DNA from: Acidimicrobiaceae bacterium
GTDB lineage: Bacteria; Actinomycetota; Acidimicrobiia; Acidimicrobiales; Acidimicrobiaceae
Reading direction: 5' to 3'
Assembly: GCA_013044385.1 (NCBI GenBank)
Contig: JABEUN010000078.1
Location: 1 to 64,000 of the forward strand
Length of the DNA: 64,000 bases
A program made the position numbers and the translations under genes. The notes beneath the pieces were generated by a model, which saw only the letters and a program-made list of their open reading frames with translations, had not been told where the DNA came from and did not search any database. This document shows positions 1 through 10,821 of this stretch, one piece after another; position 1 is the stretch's first letter; every line of letters starts with the position of its first letter.

Positions 1-1169
1 CAGCGCCAGCACCAGCACCAGCGCCCGCGCCCGCACCAGCGCCCGCACCAGCGCCCGCACCTGCACCCGCACCAGCACCAGCACCAGCGCCTGCACCCGC
101 ACCAGCACCAGCACCAGCGCCCGCGCCAGCACCTGCACCTGCGCCAATGAGTCAAGCGACCGTTGCATCAGGAGATCAGGAGTCGATGCTTCTGTCTCCG
201 GTGGTCAGAAAGTTGATCAACGAGAATGGTTTGGACGTTCACCAACTAGTTGGAACTGGGGCAGGCGGACGAATCACGAGAAGCGACGTTCTCAACTACC
301 TCGATCGAAATGCGCCAAAGCCGTCAGAGCCGGCGTCGGCGCCACGGGAGACCGTTATCACGGCAGATTCAAAGCCAGCCCAGACTGCCGTTCAGTCCGC
401 GCCTCAGCCAGTTCCAACCAAGCCGGTTATACAGACCGCAGTGGTTCAAGCCGGGGCAAGGGACGAGGTCATTCCATTCGACAACATTCGTCGTCGTACC
501 GCTGAACACATGGTTCGGTCCAAGGCGACCTCGGCTCACACCCTGGTAGCGATAGAGGTCGATTTCGAGGCAGTGGAGAGGGTTCGCCGCAGTTTTGGGG
601 ACGAATTTAAGGCGGAGGAGGGCTTCTCGCTCACCTACCTTCCCTTCGTCTCTAGGGCGACCGTAGAGGCACTCAGGTCATTCCCGAAGCTGAACGCCTC
701 AATCGGAGAAGAGACCCTGATTGTGCATAAGGATGTGAACCTCGCAATTGCGGTTGACTTGAATCTCGAAGGTTTGATCGCCCCTGTGATCCACAGTGCC
801 GATTCCAAGAGAATGAGGGGAATAGCTCGGGAGATAAGGGACTTGGCTCTGCGCGCACGGTCAAGGCAGTTGACAATGGATGACATCTCGGGAGGAACGT
901 TTACGATCACCAACCCCGGACCGTTCGGCACTTTTATCACGGCGCCCATAATCAATCAGCCACAGATTGCGATTCTCTCCACGGATGGGATCAAGAGAAA
1001 GCCGGTTGTGATTTCCAATCCGGATGGTACTGAGAGTATCGGGATTCACTCTGTCGGAATCATTGCTCTCTCGTTCGACCACCGGGCGGTGGATGGCGCT
1101 TATGCATCATCTTTCGTTGCAAAGGTTAAGGAGATCCTTGAGACCAGGAATTGGGTAGAGGAACTCTAA
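1..1169 (+). CDS. 2-oxoacid dehydrogenase E2 acyltransferase (5' end outside window)
   Basis: C-terminal part of a dihydrolipoamide acyltransferase, the core subunit of a 2-oxoacid dehydrogenase complex, which moves an acyl group from lipoyl-lysine to CoA. The frame is open from the left edge. Nucleotides 3-146 encode 24 Ala-Pro pairs, the flexible linker that follows a lipoyl domain; the lipoyl domain itself would lie upstream. A peripheral E1/E3-binding domain follows at about 195-302 (SPVVRKLINENGLDV, then GTGAGGRITRSDV). The catalytic domain ends with the active-site motif DHRAVDG near 1077-1097. The ATG at 147 lies inside the linker and is not the real start. The lipoate genes directly downstream fit its need for lipoylation. 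Whether it serves pyruvate, 2-oxoglutarate or branched-chain substrates cannot be told from this part. Confidence 0.93.
   Translation, partial: APAPAPAPAPAPAPAPAPAPAPAPAPAPAPAPAPAPAPAPAPAPAPAPMSQATVASGDQESMLLSPVVRKLINENGLDVHQLVGTGAGGRITRSDVLNYLDRNAPKPSEPASAPRETVITADSKPAQTAVQSAPQPVPTKPVIQTAVVQAGARDEVIPFDNIRRRTAEHMVRSKATSAHTLVAIEVDFEAVERVRRSFGDEFKAEEGFSLTYLPFVSRATVEALRSFPKLNASIGEETLIVHKDVNLAIAVDLNLEGLIAPVIHSADSKRMRGIAREIRDLALRARSRQLTMDDISGGTFTITNPGPFGTFITAPIINQPQIAILSTDGIKRKPVVISNPDGTESIGIHSVGIIALSFDHRAVDGAYASSFVAKVKEILETRNWVEEL
3..146 (+). repeat. Ala-Pro hexanucleotide repeat (E2 linker)
   Basis: Twenty-four consecutive units of the form GCN-CCN, all read as Ala-Pro in the E2 frame. The units differ only at third positions. 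It is a coding low-complexity repeat of the hinge type known between lipoyl and binding domains of E2 proteins. It continues beyond the left edge, so the total number of units is unknown. Confidence 0.95.
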
Positions 1170-1246: not shown

Positions 1247-2878
1247 ATGGTGCTCGAGGCTCGGTGGTTGGGCAGAGTCAGGTACGCAGATGGGTACGCG
1301 TTGCAGCACTCCCTTTTCTCGGGGAGCTCGTCGAACTACCTACTACTTCTTGAGCACCCTCACGTATTTACCCTTGGTGTCCGAGCGGATCGTTCCAATA
1401 TCCTCGTGGATCCGACCAAGGTTGCAGCCGAGCAAGTCGATGTCGATCGAGGCGGAGACGTCACCTATCACGGGCCAGGTCAGTTGGTCGGCTATCCAAT
1501 TATCAATCTTGAGTTCGGAAAGGACATGACGCCTCGCTATGTCCACACCCTCGAGGAGGCAGTAATCCAGACGCTTCTCCATTTTGGAATCGTGGCAGGT
1601 CGTCTCGAAGGCTATCCGGGTGTCTGGGTCGACCCATCGGGACGCGCTCCTAGGAAAATTGCTGCAATCGGAGTCAAGGTGAGTCGGAATAGATCCATGC
1701 ACGGATTCGCCCTGAATGTCGCTACCCAGATGGAGTACTTCGACTACATCGTCCCTTGTGGGCTGGCAGGAATGGCCGTCACCTCAATGGCCGAAGAAGG
1801 CGTGGTCGCCACGCCTAAAGACGTTGCAGCGGTGTTCGTCGAGCGATTTGCAGCACTTTTCGACTTTGCTGAGACGCGTTATGTTGGGCTCGATCAGTCG
1901 GCTGCCCTGTCCGATTTCAGCAGAGGAGTAGTTGCTGGCGGCGTCGACGCGAAGTTGTCCAGTCTCAACCGACGGCTGATGAAGGCGGGTGTGGACCCTG
2001 ATTCGGGTTTGAAGCTTTCTCAGCGCAAGCCCGAGTGGTTGCGACTGAGGGCAAACATGGGTGAAGAGTATCGAGAGCTCAAGTCGATGATGCGGAAGAT
2101 GTCATTGGTGACGGTCTGCGAGGAGGCCGGCTGTCCGAACATCTTTGAGTGCTGGCAGCAAGGAACTGCGACGTTCATGATTAACGGTGCCAGCTGTACC
2201 AGAGCGTGCGGGTTTTGCTTGGTAGACACCAACAAACCGCTTCCACTCGATCCGTTGGAGCCGGGGCGTGTTGCTGTGGCAGTGAAAGCTATGGGCTTGT
2301 CATTTGCGGTAGTGACTGCAGTTGCACGGGATGATCTCGAAGACGGTGGCGCTCGCGGGTTTGCCAACACGATTGATGCGATCCATCAGGAGAATCCAGG
2401 CGTCGGAGTTGAGGTACTCATTCCCGACTTCAAGGGTTCGGCCGATTCGCTGGAGTTGGTGTTCGCGGCCCGTCCTGAGGTGCTGAACCACAATGTTGAG
2501 ACCCCGCTCCGATTGCAGAGGGCGGTTCGTCCTTCGGCGAGTTACGCGAGATCACTTTCGGTTTTGGCACGGGCGAAGGCGGCCGGTCTAACCACCAAAT
2601 CCGGGATCATGGTTGGAATTGGCGAGGAGTTCGACGAGCTCCACGACACGTTGAGGGATCTTCGTGCTGTCGGTGTTGACATTGTGACCATCGGGCAGTA
2701 TCTCAGGCCAACTTCGAATCATCTCCCCATCTCGCGCTATTACGAGCCAGGGGAGTTCGGAGCACTTCGTACGTATGCCGAGGGCTTAGGCTTCTCCCAC
2801 GTGGAGTCTTCTCCTATGGCGAGGTCCTCCTACCATGCCAAAGCAGGCGCTGAGTCGGCCCTCGGCATGATGGTTTAG
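1247..2878 (+). CDS. lipB-lipA: LipB-LipA fusion: octanoyltransferase + lipoyl synthase
   Basis: One 543-residue frame holds two lipoate enzymes that are normally separate. Residues 1-215 are LipB, which moves octanoate from acyl carrier protein to a lipoyl domain: RGGDVTYHGPGQLVGYP at 68-84, the conserved Lys in KIAAIGVKV (137), and the acyl-accepting Cys in VPCG (171). Residues about 235-543 are LipA, the radical-SAM enzyme that inserts two sulfurs: auxiliary-cluster Cys 291, 296 and 302 (CX4CX5C), radical-SAM Cys 317, 321 and 324 (CX3CX2C), and the C-terminal RSSY (526-529). Both halves look complete, with no stop between them. ATG 1247 is chosen because it lies past the terminator; GTG 1235 is possible. 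The substrate E2 gene is immediately upstream. Confidence 0.95.
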   Translation: MVLEARWLGRVRYADGYALQHSLFSGSSSNYLLLLEHPHVFTLGVRADRSNILVDPTKVAAEQVDVDRGGDVTYHGPGQLVGYPIINLEFGKDMTPRYVHTLEEAVIQTLLHFGIVAGRLEGYPGVWVDPSGRAPRKIAAIGVKVSRNRSMHGFALNVATQMEYFDYIVPCGLAGMAVTSMAEEGVVATPKDVAAVFVERFAALFDFAETRYVGLDQSAALSDFSRGVVAGGVDAKLSSLNRRLMKAGVDPDSGLKLSQRKPEWLRLRANMGEEYRELKSMMRKMSLVTVCEEAGCPNIFECWQQGTATFMINGASCTRACGFCLVDTNKPLPLDPLEPGRVAVAVKAMGLSFAVVTAVARDDLEDGGARGFANTIDAIHQENPGVGVEVLIPDFKGSADSLELVFAARPEVLNHNVETPLRLQRAVRPSASYARSLSVLARAKAAGLTTKSGIMVGIGEEFDELHDTLRDLRAVGVDIVTIGQYLRPTSNHLPISRYYEPGEFGALRTYAEGLGFSHVESSPMARSSYHAKAGAESALGMMV

Positions 2879-2917: not shown

Positions 2918-4096
2918 ATGTCGTTAGTCCCAGATTTGGAGCAGTATTCAAAGATGACACTTCCGTCGGAAGCAGATTTTACCGCGGCGAGACGTAGGCG
3001 AATAGAGCTGGTGCAGCAGCATATGGACCAAAGTTACGTCGACTCGCTCGTACTGACACTCGGTGCAGACATGCCGTGGTTGATCGGCTATGAGGCGATG
3101 CCGCTGGAACGGGTCACAGCACTTGTAATGCCCAGAGGCGGGCGGCCAACCCTCGTGGTGCCTAAGCTCGAGGCACCACGAGTGCGGCACTTCGACGACA
3201 TGTTTACAATCGAGCCATGGGCCGAGTCGGAGGACCCTTTTCGCTTGATTGCAGACCTCGTAGGGACCGGCGCTGGGCGGGTAGGAGTTTCGGAGCGTAC
3301 CTGGGCAAGCTGGCTCATTCGGCTTCAATCCGAGCTCCCAAATACCACCTATATCGACAGTTCTGAAGTTACGGGTGATATCCGATCGGTCAAGGATGAT
3401 CTTGAAATTATGATGCTCAGACTAGCTGCGGAAGCAGCCGACAGAGTAGCTGACACATTGATGGCGGGATTTGTAACCTTCAAGGGTCGATCAGAGCGCC
3501 AGATCTCCAAGCTCATCTCTGAGATGCTCGTTGACGAGGGGCATTCGAAGGTCAACTTCGCGATAGTTGGTTCGGGACCCAACTCTGCCTCGCCGCACCA
3601 TGAACCCGGTGACAGGGTGATTGAAATCGGTGACGCAGTCGTGTGTGACTTTGGCGGCACGTTCGGAATTCGTGAAGAGCCTGGATACTGCTCCGACACG
3701 ACGAGGACCTTCTGCATTGGCGAAGCTAACCAGGAGTTTCTGCGACTTTACGACGTCCTTCATAGGGCTCAGTTAAAGTCGACGGCTTCGGCGATTTCGG
3801 GGGTGGATCTAAGCGCGGTGGACGCTGCAGCCAGGGACGAGATCGATTCAGAGGGTCTTGGTGAGTACTTCGTTCACAGGGTCGGACACGGGATCGGTCT
3901 TGAGGAGCATGAGTTGCCTTATTTGGCGCCTCACAGCGTCGGGGTTCTAAAGTCCGGCCATGCATTTTCAGTTGAACCAGGGATATACCTACCTGGGCGG
4001 TTTGGTGCACGGATAGAAGATATTGTCGTCGCCACAAATGACGGTCCGCAATCTCTGAATGTGTCAAATAGGTCACTGGTCTGTTTAGACCGCTGA
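2918..4096 (+). CDS. M24-family metallopeptidase (Xaa-Pro aminopeptidase type)
   Basis: A 392-residue cytosolic peptidase of the pita-bread fold, expected to cleave Xaa-Pro peptides or dipeptides. The N-terminal creatinase-like domain (about 1-165) precedes the catalytic domain. The five metal ligands are visible: two Asp in VVCDFGG and CSDTTRT, His in HRVGHGIGLEEHE, and Glu in FSVEPGIY and ARIEDIV. The gene follows lipB-lipA by 39 nt on the same strand and may be co-transcribed. No strong ribosome-binding site precedes ATG 2918; ATG 2954 is a possible alternative. PepP and PepQ cannot be separated from sequence alone. Confidence 0.88.
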   Translation: MSLVPDLEQYSKMTLPSEADFTAARRRRIELVQQHMDQSYVDSLVLTLGADMPWLIGYEAMPLERVTALVMPRGGRPTLVVPKLEAPRVRHFDDMFTIEPWAESEDPFRLIADLVGTGAGRVGVSERTWASWLIRLQSELPNTTYIDSSEVTGDIRSVKDDLEIMMLRLAAEAADRVADTLMAGFVTFKGRSERQISKLISEMLVDEGHSKVNFAIVGSGPNSASPHHEPGDRVIEIGDAVVCDFGGTFGIREEPGYCSDTTRTFCIGEANQEFLRLYDVLHRAQLKSTASAISGVDLSAVDAAARDEIDSEGLGEYFVHRVGHGIGLEEHELPYLAPHSVGVLKSGHAFSVEPGIYLPGRFGARIEDIVVATNDGPQSLNVSNRSLVCLDR

Positions 4097-5199: not shown

Positions 5200-8100
5200 T
5201 TAGGCGACGAAATACTTTGCCATCGGGTGGTGGCAGATGATTGCAGTAGTCGTCTGTTCTGGATGGAGTTGGAAACCCTCGCTGGTCACGACTCCGATGC
5301 GATCTGCCGCCAGTAGATTTACCACCCGCTCGTTGTCTTCAAGTTTCGGACAGGCCGGGTAACCCCATGAGTACCTTCCTCCCCTGTACTGCTGCCTGAA
5401 TAACCCGGTGAGAGTCGGTCCGTCTTCGTCGACAAATCCCATTTCGGTTCGTATCCGCTTGTGCCAGAACTCCGCCAACGCTTCAGCCATTTCGACCCCG
5501 AGGCCGTGCAGGTAAAGGTACTGCTGGTACTGGTGCTCCTCAAAGAGTTCGGCAGCGAATCTGGAGATCGTCGACCCCATCGTCACAACGTGGAAGGCCG
5601 CGTAGTCGATCTCGCCGGATTCGATCGGTCTGAAGAAGTCCGCGATGCATAAGAATGGCTCCTGCTTCTGCCTGGGGAATTCGAACCTCGTCAGCTCCGT
5701 GCTCCTACTCCGATCTGAATAGACGATTAGGTCGCCTCCATCGGAGTTGACCGGAAAATAGCCATAGGCGACTTGGGGGACCAGTAGCTGCTCCGACTTT
5801 GCTTTCTCGAGCTCTGCTCGAAGGTTCTGGCGTACCCGGGTCTTGAACTCTTGGTCCGACTCACCGTTTTCGGGTCGGAATCCCCACTGATTTCGGAAGA
5901 GGGCCGTCTCGTTGAGGAACTTCGATATCTCGTCTATCGAGATGCCCTTTACGACCTCGGTTCCGATGAAAGGTGGTTCGAACACCGGGTTGTCAAAGGG
6001 TACAGAAGGGGATCTTCTGAGATCGGTTCGTGGTTCGATCTCTCGCTGAAGCTCCGATCGCCTCTTGGGCATCTTGCGTTCGGAGAGCTTTGTACCGAAG
6101 TCGCTGTCTACTACTTCGCCGGACTTGATCTGCATCAGTCGGTCCATCACTCTTAGGCCTTCGAATGCGTCCTTTCCATAGAAGACGCGTCCGTTGTAGG
6201 TGTTACGCAGATCTCTTTCGACGAAAGTTCTTGTGAGGGCCGCTCCGCCGAGGATGACCGGAGTCTCGTGCAGTCCAAGGGAGTTGAGCTCCTCTAGGTT
6301 CTCCCGCATGATCAGCGTCGATTTGACTAGAAGCCCACTCATCCCTATGGCATCTGCGGCGACCTCTTTTGCTTTGGAGACCATCTCCGATAGCGGGACT
6401 TTGATACCGAGATTGTGGACCTGGTAGCCATTGTTGGTGAGGATGATGTCGACCAGATTTTTGCCGATGTCGTGGACGTCGCCTTTCACCGTCGCCAGCA
6501 CGATTACACCTTTGTTTGAACTGTCGGTCTTTTCCATATGTGGCTCGAGATAAGAGACGGCGCTTTTCATCGTCTCGGCGGAAGATAGGACAAAGGGAAG
6601 TTGCATCTTCCCCGAACCGAAAAGCTCGCCGACCTCAGCCATTGCGTCCAGCAGATTCCCGTTAATGATCTCGAGTGGGCTGATGCCCTCGTCCATAGCC
6701 AGATCAAGGTCAGATTCGAGTCCTGTGCGATTTCCGTCCAGGATCCTCCGGTACAGACGTTCTCCGACCGGTAGGGTCGAAAGGTCGATCTTCACCTTCG
6801 CTCGTGATTCAGCACCTTCGAATAGTTCGATCAGTTTTGAAAGTGGGTCGTAACCTTCCGAGCGGCGGTCGTATATCAGATCGAGACAGGTCTGGATCTG
6901 CTCCTCTGGGATGCTAGCGAGCGGGACGATCTTAGATGGGTGGACGATGGCTCCGTCCAAACCCGCGTCTATGCACTCCTTTAGAAAAACCGAGTTCAAA
7001 ACTTCGCGGGCTGCTGGGTTGAGGCCGAAGGAGATGTTTGATAGGCCAACTGCAGTGAATGACGGGAGGTTCTGTTTTATCAGTCGGATCCCCTCAATTG
7101 TCTCGAGACCGTCCCGTCTTGACTCTTCCATACCTGTCGATATTGGTAGGACCAGCGGGTCGAATATGAGGTCCTGTGGTCTAAGGCCATACTTGTTGAT
7201 CGCGATGTCGAAGATCGCCCTTGCTGCGTCGAGTTTCCACTGTGCGGTACGGGCTTGTCCGGTCTCGTCTATGCAGGTGCACACGACTGCCGCTCCGTAC
7301 TCCTTTGCGAGTTTTAGAAATTTGTCGAGCCGAGTCCCTTCGGCTGACCCTTCCTCAAGGTTCACCGAATTGATCACGGCTCGTCCACCAAGGAATGAGA
7401 GTCCTGCCTCGACTACCTCGGCCTCAGTGGAGTCAACCATGATGGGAAGGGTCGACTGAGTGGCGAGCCGGGAGATGATCTCGTGCATGTCTGAAACGCC
7501 GTCTGCGCCGGTGTAGTCGACGCATAGGTCTATCACATTCGCACCATCTCGCGTCTGTTCCTTCGCCATGTCTACGCAGGTCTCCCAATCTCCGGCGAGC
7601 ATGGCTTCTCGGAATCTGCGGGATCCGTTCGCGTTTGTCCTTTCGCCAATGGCCAAGTAGGAGAGGTCCTGGCCAATCGTGACAGGCGAATAGAGCGAGG
7701 ACAACGATGCTTCGAGAGAGTGCTCCCGTCGCCTGGGTTCGAGTTCGGCGCAGGTTTCGACTATCGCCTGGATGTGTGCCGGCGTAGTTCCGCAACACCC
7801 CCCGATGATCTGCACGCCTAAATCTGAGACGAACCTTTTGTGGTATGACGCGAGTTCTTCGGGGCCGACGTCGTAGTGCATCTTTCCGTCCACCACTGAC
7901 GGAAGGCCAGCATTGGGGAGGCACGAGATCGGGTAGGGGCTGTAAGCAGAGAGGTGACGTAGGTGCTCACCCATCTCCTTGGGGCCAGTGGCACAGTTGA
8001 TTCCGATCGCGACTGGCTCGAACGGCTCCAAGGCGACCAGGGCTGCGCCGATCTCTGTTCCAGGCAGCATTCGGCCGGTCAACTCCATCGTCACCTGGAG

Positions 8101-8667
8101 CTGGAGAGGGATGTCCTTCCCCATTCTCTTCATGGCGCGCCGAGCACCAGCGATCGCAGCCTTGGCTCCGAGTATGTCGAAGACGGTCTCGATCAGAATT
8201 AGATCTACTCCACCCTCAATCAATGCCTCCGCCTGGACTTCGTAGGCTCGACGGAGGCTAGCGAGGTCAATCTGGCCGAGTGAGACTAGCTTCGTTCCTG
8301 GACCCATCGAGCCAGCTACGAATCTGGGCTTGTCCTTAGTCGAAAAGGAGTTTGCCACCTCCCTAGCGATCTGGGCCGCCTTGAGATTGAGCTCATAGGC
8401 CCGATCCCCGATCTGGTACTCGGCCAGAACCGTCGAGATGGCACCGAAGGTATCGGTTTCGACGACGTCGGCACCTACCTCAAGGAAGGAAGAGTGTAGG
8501 TCGGCGACCACGTCAGGTCGGGTCGCAGGGAGGATCTCATTGCAACCCTCCAAGGCATCTCCGCCGAAATCGTCAGCTGTGAGGTTGCGAAGTTGGAGAT
8601 TTGATCCAGTTGCGCCGTCGAAGATTACCACTCGATTTGATGAAAGTAAGTCTCGGTAACTTGGCAT
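5200..8667 (-). CDS. metH: Cobalamin-dependent methionine synthase
   Basis: 1155 residues, close to the usual 1150-1230 of MetH, which transfers a methyl group from methyltetrahydrofolate to homocysteine through cob(I)alamin. All four modules are visible in order. The homocysteine domain has zinc Cys 225 (GINCATGP) and 291-292 (GGCCGTTP). The pterin domain has IGERTNANGSRRF near 342. The B12 cap and Rossmann domains carry the cobalt-ligand motif DVHDIGKN near 720. The C-terminal SAM activation domain has SWGYPACPKLEDNERV near 1095. It is divergent from a cobalamin adenosyltransferase with only about 65 nt between starts. That gap is too small for a cobalamin or SAM riboswitch, and none is seen. 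Confidence 0.97.
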   Translation of the reverse strand: MPSYRDLLSSNRVVIFDGATGSNLQLRNLTADDFGGDALEGCNEILPATRPDVVADLHSSFLEVGADVVETDTFGAISTVLAEYQIGDRAYELNLKAAQIAREVANSFSTKDKPRFVAGSMGPGTKLVSLGQIDLASLRRAYEVQAEALIEGGVDLILIETVFDILGAKAAIAGARRAMKRMGKDIPLQLQVTMELTGRMLPGTEIGAALVALEPFEPVAIGINCATGPKEMGEHLRHLSAYSPYPISCLPNAGLPSVVDGKMHYDVGPEELASYHKRFVSDLGVQIIGGCCGTTPAHIQAIVETCAELEPRRREHSLEASLSSLYSPVTIGQDLSYLAIGERTNANGSRRFREAMLAGDWETCVDMAKEQTRDGANVIDLCVDYTGADGVSDMHEIISRLATQSTLPIMVDSTEAEVVEAGLSFLGGRAVINSVNLEEGSAEGTRLDKFLKLAKEYGAAVVCTCIDETGQARTAQWKLDAARAIFDIAINKYGLRPQDLIFDPLVLPISTGMEESRRDGLETIEGIRLIKQNLPSFTAVGLSNISFGLNPAAREVLNSVFLKECIDAGLDGAIVHPSKIVPLASIPEEQIQTCLDLIYDRRSEGYDPLSKLIELFEGAESRAKVKIDLSTLPVGERLYRRILDGNRTGLESDLDLAMDEGISPLEIINGNLLDAMAEVGELFGSGKMQLPFVLSSAETMKSAVSYLEPHMEKTDSSNKGVIVLATVKGDVHDIGKNLVDIILTNNGYQVHNLGIKVPLSEMVSKAKEVAADAIGMSGLLVKSTLIMRENLEELNSLGLHETPVILGGAALTRTFVERDLRNTYNGRVFYGKDAFEGLRVMDRLMQIKSGEVVDSDFGTKLSERKMPKRRSELQREIEPRTDLRRSPSVPFDNPVFEPPFIGTEVVKGISIDEISKFLNETALFRNQWGFRPENGESDQEFKTRVRQNLRAELEKAKSEQLLVPQVAYGYFPVNSDGGDLIVYSDRSRSTELTRFEFPRQKQEPFLCIADFFRPIESGEIDYAAFHVVTMGSTISRFAAELFEEHQYQQYLYLHGLGVEMAEALAEFWHKRIRTEMGFVDEDGPTLTGLFRQQYRGGRYSWGYPACPKLEDNERVVNLLAADRIGVVTSEGFQLHPEQTTTAIICHHPMAKYFVA

Positions 8668-8732
8668 TCCATTCAGTGTAGTGAGGACGTATTTTGCGAT
8701 GTATGTGCCGCGGATCAGCTAGTTTTGCGTGG

Positions 8733-9275
8733 GTGAAGATCTACACGAGAAAAGGTGATGACGGCTCCACCGGACTGCTGTACGGAGGCAGGATTGGAAA
8801 GGACAGTCTCGCAATCGAACTCAATGGCGCGGTGGACGAGGCTCAGGCGGCGATCGGTCTCGCTCGTGCGGATTCTGCCGGAGAACTCAGTGACCTCTGC
8901 GTATCGCTCGAGCGCGATCTGTGGGTGTTGATGGCTGAAGTCGCCACTCTGCCCGAGAACAGAGGGAAGCTGAAGGCGGGAACTACATTGGTCACCCTTG
9001 ATATGATCTCCAGACTTGAGCAGGTGATAGACCAGTACGAGGGAAGGTTCGATATGCCGACCGAATTTGTCATCCCCGGACAAAACCGAATCTCGGCCCT
9101 GTTTGACGTCGCGAGAACTATAACAAGACGGGCCGAGAGGGTCTCGGTTCCTTTCGTTCACATGGTCGGAGAGTCGCAAGTGGGGGCATACCTCAATCGC
9201 CTCTCAGATCTTCTCTGGGTGCTCGCTCGATTCGCAGAGGGTGACCACTTGCTTAGCAGAGCAGTTCGGAACTGA
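8733..9275 (+). CDS. Cob(I)alamin adenosyltransferase, PduO type
   Basis: About 180 residues. The ATP-binding N-terminus TRKGDDGSTGLLYGGRIGKDS and the signature ARTITRRAERVSV mark the PduO/MMAB family, which makes adenosylcobalamin from ATP and cob(I)alamin. The GTG at 8733 puts the conserved KIYTRKGDDG at the N-terminus as in the family; the open frame from ATG 8694 would add 13 unlike residues. No clear ribosome-binding site is present, so a leaderless or weak start is possible. Its product is the cofactor of the mutase encoded at 13.8 kb, and its neighbour metH also uses cobalamin. Confidence 0.9.
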   Translation: MKIYTRKGDDGSTGLLYGGRIGKDSLAIELNGAVDEAQAAIGLARADSAGELSDLCVSLERDLWVLMAEVATLPENRGKLKAGTTLVTLDMISRLEQVIDQYEGRFDMPTEFVIPGQNRISALFDVARTITRRAERVSVPFVHMVGESQVGAYLNRLSDLLWVLARFAEGDHLLSRAVRN

Positions 9276-9381
9276 TGACGACCGAGGGACCGGTGGTCAT
9301 CAGTTCGGCTGAATCCGAAAGTAGAATCCCATTCTGTTGGTTTATGCGGGCCCGAGCGGTGCCGCCAGATATGGAGTGAGA

Positions 9382-10821
9382 ATGAGAGACCTTAAGATAT
9401 CCGTGGTAGTGACCCCGGAAATCTCTGGATTGCCGAACTTCGTAGCAGTTGGCAGACCGATCCCAGATGGTATCGGGGCATCTGATGTCTGGAATTTTAG
9501 AGGTGACGCCTCCGAAATCGCTCCTGGTCGACTGGGAGATCGGGAGGTGGTCTTCCTTGGAGCCGGAGCTATTTCGGACCTCGATTCAAGCGCTGTGAGA
9601 TCTCTTGGCGCTTCATTCGCCAGACGGTTGCCGAAGTTTGGGAATTCGGTTCTCGACATCCGTTACCTTGCTGACCAATTTGACGAAGTGTCCAGTTCGT
9701 TGGTTGCACTGTTTGAGGGCATCTTGCTAGGAAACTACCGCTATGACGCTCTCCGCTCAAAGGCCTCACTGCCGGAGAACGAGGCCGACTTCTCGTCGGT
9801 AACGGTGGTGGTTCCCAGTGAGTGGCTCGACGCTGCCTCAAACTCGGCAAATGTCGCAAAGTTGCATGCAAGTGCAACGGCGCTGGCCCGGGATCTGATT
9901 AACGAGCCGGCCAAGACGATGACTCCGACTCGATTTGCAGATGTGGCAACCGAGGTCGCCGAGACTGCTGGTCTAGCGATCCGAGTTTGGGACGAGGAGG
10001 ACGCAAAGAGAGAACGCCTAGGGGGCCTGCTCGGAGTAGCGGCCGGTTCGGAGCAGCCACCGAGGATGATTCGACTCACGTATCGGCCGAGTGGGACTCC
10101 CCTCGGCAAGGTCGCATTAGTGGGCAAGGGCATCACCTTCGATTCAGGTGGTCTCTCATTGAAGCCTCCGGGGGGAATGGAGGCCATGAAGACCGACATG
10201 TCAGGTGCCGCCGCCGTCCTTGCTACAATGAGTGTGCTTGGCGCACTCGACTGTCAGTTCGAGGTCAACGGTTACATGGCTCTCACGGAGAATCTCCCAT
10301 CTGGCACCGCCACAAAGCCGGGTGATGTTTTGACTACGCGATCGGGTAAGACAATCGAGGTCCTGAATACTGATGCTGAGGGCCGACTGGTGCTATCTGA
10401 TGCGCTGACACTAGCGGTTGAGGACGGGGCCGAGCAGGTGGTTGACCTGGCGACACTGACAGGCGCCTGTGTAGTGGCGCTCGGTGGAGAGATTGCAGGC
10501 ATATTCAGCAATGATGAAACGCTCGTGGCCGACATAGTGGCCGCCGGAGAGATTGCCGGTGAGCCGTACTGGCAGCTCCCGCTTCCGAAGCGGTATCGGA
10601 AGCATATCGATTCTGAGATCGCCGATATGAAGAACATGGGTGAACCCGGTGCTGCCGGAGCAATTGCGGCGGCACTACTGCTCCAGGAGTTCGTCGGAGA
10701 TGCAAAGTGGGCCCATCTGGATATAGCTGGACCGTCGCGATCTAACAAGGACGTGGATATATTCGCAAAAGGTGGAACGGGATTCGGAACCAGAACCCTT
10801 CTTGCTTGGTTAACCGACTGA
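9382..10821 (+). CDS. pepA: Leucyl aminopeptidase (M17)
   Basis: 479 residues from ATG 9382, which has GGAG five bases upstream; an in-frame start at 9337 is less likely. The C-terminal catalytic domain carries the two metal-binding motifs of cytosol aminopeptidases: VGKGITFDSGGLSLKP (Lys and Asp ligands) and NTDAEGRLVLSDAL (Asp, Glu and the catalytic Arg). The variable N-terminal domain spans about residues 1-165. It removes N-terminal amino acids, preferably leucine, and normally forms a hexamer in the cytosol. It faces the downstream unknown gene convergently. Confidence 0.95.
   Translation: MRDLKISVVVTPEISGLPNFVAVGRPIPDGIGASDVWNFRGDASEIAPGRLGDREVVFLGAGAISDLDSSAVRSLGASFARRLPKFGNSVLDIRYLADQFDEVSSSLVALFEGILLGNYRYDALRSKASLPENEADFSSVTVVVPSEWLDAASNSANVAKLHASATALARDLINEPAKTMTPTRFADVATEVAETAGLAIRVWDEEDAKRERLGGLLGVAAGSEQPPRMIRLTYRPSGTPLGKVALVGKGITFDSGGLSLKPPGGMEAMKTDMSGAAAVLATMSVLGALDCQFEVNGYMALTENLPSGTATKPGDVLTTRSGKTIEVLNTDAEGRLVLSDALTLAVEDGAEQVVDLATLTGACVVALGGEIAGIFSNDETLVADIVAAGEIAGEPYWQLPLPKRYRKHIDSEIADMKNMGEPGAAGAIAAALLLQEFVGDAKWAHLDIAGPSRSNKDVDIFAKGGTGFGTRTLLAWLTD

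Follow-up and report, generated by a model that had tools for sequence, protein, structure and literature searches.

The gene at positions 1247 to 2878 of the window (the whole stretch of 64,000 nucleotides that was analysed) carries LipB and LipA in a single open reading frame, and this fusion is the normal arrangement throughout the host's class, probably Acidimicrobiia, not a quirk of one genome. The explanation that best accounts for the evidence taken together, and that we consider very probable, is that the gene encodes one bifunctional protein that would act first as LipB and then as LipA on the lipoyl domain of E2, with a single origin at the level of the class and with the linker as a tether. 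The features that bear on this reading are as follows.

3 to 1169, + strand: 3' part of a gene for a 2-oxoacid dehydrogenase E2 (dihydrolipoamide acyltransferase; PF00198, PF02817); the contig starts inside the gene, past the lipoyl domain
1247 to 2878, + strand: LipB-LipA fusion gene, one open frame of 543 amino acids, with LipB and LipA equivalogs above their cut-offs
1247 to 1864, + strand: LipB octanoyltransferase domain, residues 1-206, with K137 and C171 (PF21948, NF010925, TIGR00214; dyad aligned with 1W66)
1865 to 2017, + strand: weakly conserved linker, residues 207-257 (alignment of 74 fused proteins; phmmer alignment to 5exi_A from residue 225)
2018 to 2854, + strand: LipA lipoyl synthase domain, residues 258-536, with two Cys triads and RSSY (TIGR00510, NF004019, PF16881, PF04055; motifs)
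2918 to 4096, + strand: M24 family peptidase, the next gene downstream (PF00557, PF01321)

Translation of the + strand from 1247 to 2878 gives 543 residues with no stop. The frame is already open 5' of 1247 and includes a TTG codon at position 1151, so the start codon of the gene is uncertain. Against Pfam, the protein matches LplA-B_cat at residues 15-201 (130.8 bits, cut-off 27), LIAS_N at 258-296 and Radical_SAM at 316-472. It also passes the NCBIfam equivalog models for lipB (NF010925 at 186.8 bits, cut-off 155; TIGR00214 at 152.8, cut-off 83.55) and for lipA (TIGR00510 at 342 bits, cut-off 310.25). In the LipB half, K137 and C171 correspond in alignment to K142/C176, the catalytic dyad of Mycobacterium tuberculosis LipB (1W66; PMC9307952). 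The LipA half holds a first Cys triad at C291/C296/C302 (CX4CX5C), a second at C317/C321/C324 (CX3CX2C), and an RSSY motif beginning at residue 526. Both halves look, from their sequences, like ordinary working enzymes. An earlier note on this DNA had read LipB and LipA in one frame with all catalytic residues intact; the 543 codons without a stop, the two complete domains above curated cut-offs, and the presence of each residue at its expected place bear this out, and frame, equivalog profiles and conserved residues together support its description of the fusion as bifunctional.

Comparison with the nearest solved relatives gives the same picture of two complete enzymes end to end. The match to the lipoyltransferase 1W66 runs over residues 3-204 and includes the full LipB domain with its Lys/Cys dyad and RGG loop; unlike a stand-alone LipB, the window protein then runs on in frame into LipA. 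The match to the M. tuberculosis lipoyl synthase 5EXI (5exi_A) runs over residues 225-533 and includes the full LipA domain with both Cys triads and RSSY, but here LipA lacks a free N-terminus and is preceded by LipB and the linker. A structure prediction made from two sequences had a mean pLDDT of 41, a confidence too low to place the domains relative to each other.

A search for the domain pair within the phylum, a check that the earlier note had proposed, found both domains in one frame at 74 non-redundant loci of the host's class among the loci analysed, which come from separate assemblies, and full-length one-frame matches occur at every level from the family through the order to the class. 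None of the 74 departs from K137, C171, the six cysteines of LipA or the RSS of RSSY; the final Tyr is present in 69. This conservation suggests that selection acts on both halves of the fusion. Identity among the 74 proteins is 46-65% in the domains and 17-28% in the linker, which varies from 21 to 88 residues and whose end is similar to the extension at the N-terminus of stand-alone actinobacterial LipA in the phmmer alignment to 5exi_A. The earlier note had implied that such a fusion is rare, a view that finds no support within the class, where almost all intact loci carry the fusion. It had also named, as grounds for doubt, the prospect of many genomes carrying a fusion already described; many genomes do carry it, but we found no description.

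Conservation on this scale also bears on whether the single frame is an artifact. A sequencing or assembly error could in principle have deleted a stop between adjacent genes, since lipB and lipA adjoin in other classes of the phylum, in some cases sharing a frame and separated by one or two stops, so that one error would suffice to fuse them. However, the 74 loci come from separate assemblies and all are fused, including those in single-contig genomes (for example, G001, G047 and G187). The class-wide conservation refutes this reading in practice, and we regard an error as extremely unlikely.

Three loci, L090, L091 and L092, appeared unfused at first look, and in each of them the contig ends 4-61 bases past the match. 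The frames of L090 and L092 are open up to the contig end, and we rejected both as split loci. In L091 (G041:C131), the final 61 bases of the contig include a TGA in the linker, 21 codons short of the end. This locus is ambiguous and may be either an assembly fault or a true exception; no other locus of the class hints that LipA might be split. We also considered a triple fusion of E2, LipB and LipA in some relatives, where frames run up to 1375 codons from stop to stop, and rejected it, as the E2 match was never in the same frame. One genome of the same order (G107) contains two full-length fused copies (G107:C3:2082-3710 and G107:C85:9919-11538), which represent either a duplication or a mixed assembly.

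The two genes are separate in every locus compared from outside the class. All 11 such loci, which belong to other classes of the phylum, have lipB and lipA in separate frames; in nine of these they are adjacent on one strand in the order lipB-lipA with 146-268 bases between the domains, and six of the nine have an E2 match upstream. We built trees for the LipB and LipA domains separately, and each requires one change between fused and split states, a number as low as which was reached in none of 500 shuffles; SH-aLRT support is 81 and 87, which is moderate, and the outgroup is small. Because each tree needs only one change, the simplest and most likely reading is that a single fusion occurred near the base of the class (probably Acidimicrobiia), through loss of the lipB stop codon from an operon of the order E2-lipB-lipA, and has been retained since. 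Among plasmid records, 8 of 214 cover at least 80% of the query; the two of these eight that were listed, from Nonomuraea and Proteus, are joined from two pieces.

The gene also keeps a constant neighbourhood with E2. In the window, 77 bases separate the end of the E2 gene at 1169 from position 1247. Of the 74 fused loci, 72 have an E2 directly ahead of the fusion, and lpd precedes that E2 in 35 of the 38 loci for which at least 2.9 kb of DNA is available. The suggestion of the earlier note that the fusion lies beside the E2 it would modify is supported by this context. An M24 peptidase gene follows the fusion in many relatives as well. The lipoyl-domain half of the E2 falls outside the window, whose contig (C43) opens in the Ala-Pro repeat of E2, while the lipoyl-domain half of an E2, with lpd, is found at the end of another contig of the same genome (L109, G000:C46, 3-359). 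The contig break seemingly falls inside the Ala-Pro-rich linker of the E2 gene (window 1-146; L109 3-359). By analogy with relatives such as L037, an Acidimicrobiales MAG whose fusion is 58% identical and whose E2 is whole and directly before it, the ends of C43 and C46 seem to be one E2 gene split between contigs.

We next consider how such a protein would work. In the known pathway, LipB binds octanoyl as a thioester and hands it on to the lysine of the lipoyl domain, and the two sulfur atoms are added by LipA (PMC9307952). In the fusion, the N-terminal LipB domain would load C171 with octanoyl from octanoyl-ACP and then deliver it to the lysine in the E2 lipoyl domain; other proteins with lipoyl domains are probably substrates too. 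The C-terminal LipA domain, a predicted radical SAM enzyme with two [4Fe-4S] clusters, would then add two sulfurs at C6 and C8. The main role of the flexible linker would be to hold the two enzymes equal in amount and close together, so that an octanoylated domain might reach LipA soon after its release from LipB.

A stricter arrangement, which the earlier note had raised as a possibility, is a true channel, in which the octanoylated lipoyl domain would pass from LipB to LipA without release. Retention of the fusion in nearly all sampled members of the class and the constant E2 neighbourhood speak for a channel. However, a linker of 21-88 residues with no conserved sequence implies no fixed geometry, though it is still compatible with a tether, and the intermediate rides on a whole lipoyl domain that must quit one site and reach another. 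We therefore consider a channel improbable, and the lack of linker conservation makes a flexible tether the likelier role. Whether the tether of this class-wide enzyme, with both de novo steps on one polypeptide, would give processive lipoylation of the adjacent E2 is a further, tentative matter, and we think it unlikely.

The linker matters in another respect, because a continuous frame could still yield LipB and LipA largely as two proteins, if translation also started within the linker or a protease cut there, in which case the fusion would matter little. The weak conservation of the linker is consistent with this, as is a strong Shine-Dalgarno sequence with an ATG or GTG in the linker at 10 of the 74 loci; such sequences precede 4.6% of linker starts compared with 2.3% in the domain bodies. 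By comparison, 30 of the 74 loci have a strong Shine-Dalgarno sequence near the gene start. The window gene itself has no such start in its linker, and no signal for an internal LipA start is conserved across the linkers of the 74 loci. We judge separate products to be very improbable, and translation as one polypeptide remains our preferred reading.

There is precedent for an attachment enzyme joined to LipA: the NCBIfam model NF053790 describes a bifunctional lipoate--protein ligase/lipoyl synthase in which LplA, an enzyme of the same superfamily as LipB, stands ahead of LipA in one protein. The window protein does not belong to that family: it scores 352.5 bits against a cut-off of 800, only its LipA part matches (positions 330-604 of 606), and its N-terminal half is LipB rather than an ATP-dependent ligase. 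LipB-LipA fusions are listed in public protein databases by automatic annotation. The fusion goes unmentioned in passages of three papers on lipoate assembly (PMC10332631, PMC6067878 and PMC3917532), and our search found no paper on it, which is weak evidence of novelty as the search was incomplete, with most subscription journals outside it. The chemistry of both steps is already known. With the two steps joined in nature, one could readily ask whether proximity benefits octanoyl transfer and sulfur insertion. The fusion is also a candidate marker for its class, and as a single gene it could be used to bring de novo lipoylation to a heterologous host.

In the host genome (2.8 Mb in 95 contigs, estimated to be 95% complete), the fusion is the only LipA-family match above the cut-off. 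Ten matches to biotinyl/lipoyl domains were found, so the fusion may serve further lipoyl-domain proteins besides the adjacent E2. Three other matches to the LplA/LipB superfamily all score lower, and two of them, on contig C48, fit ligase models and not LipB models. That contig also holds an apparent second lipoate route within an sHdr-type sulfur-oxidation cluster (L096, G000:C48:28000-46000; example genes at 747-1250, 1207-1686, 5913-7046, 7016-8170, 8104-9204, 9078-9521 and 9518-10543). The cluster includes three GcvH-like proteins, two Lpl-like ligases, HdrA/B/C-like proteins and, by eye, EtfAB-like proteins, together with LipS1-like and LipS2-like radical SAM proteins that score 228.2 and 186.2 bits, under the cut-offs of 230 and 270. 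Its content fits the group III arrangement reported for Actinobacteria and Firmicutes (PMC6067878).
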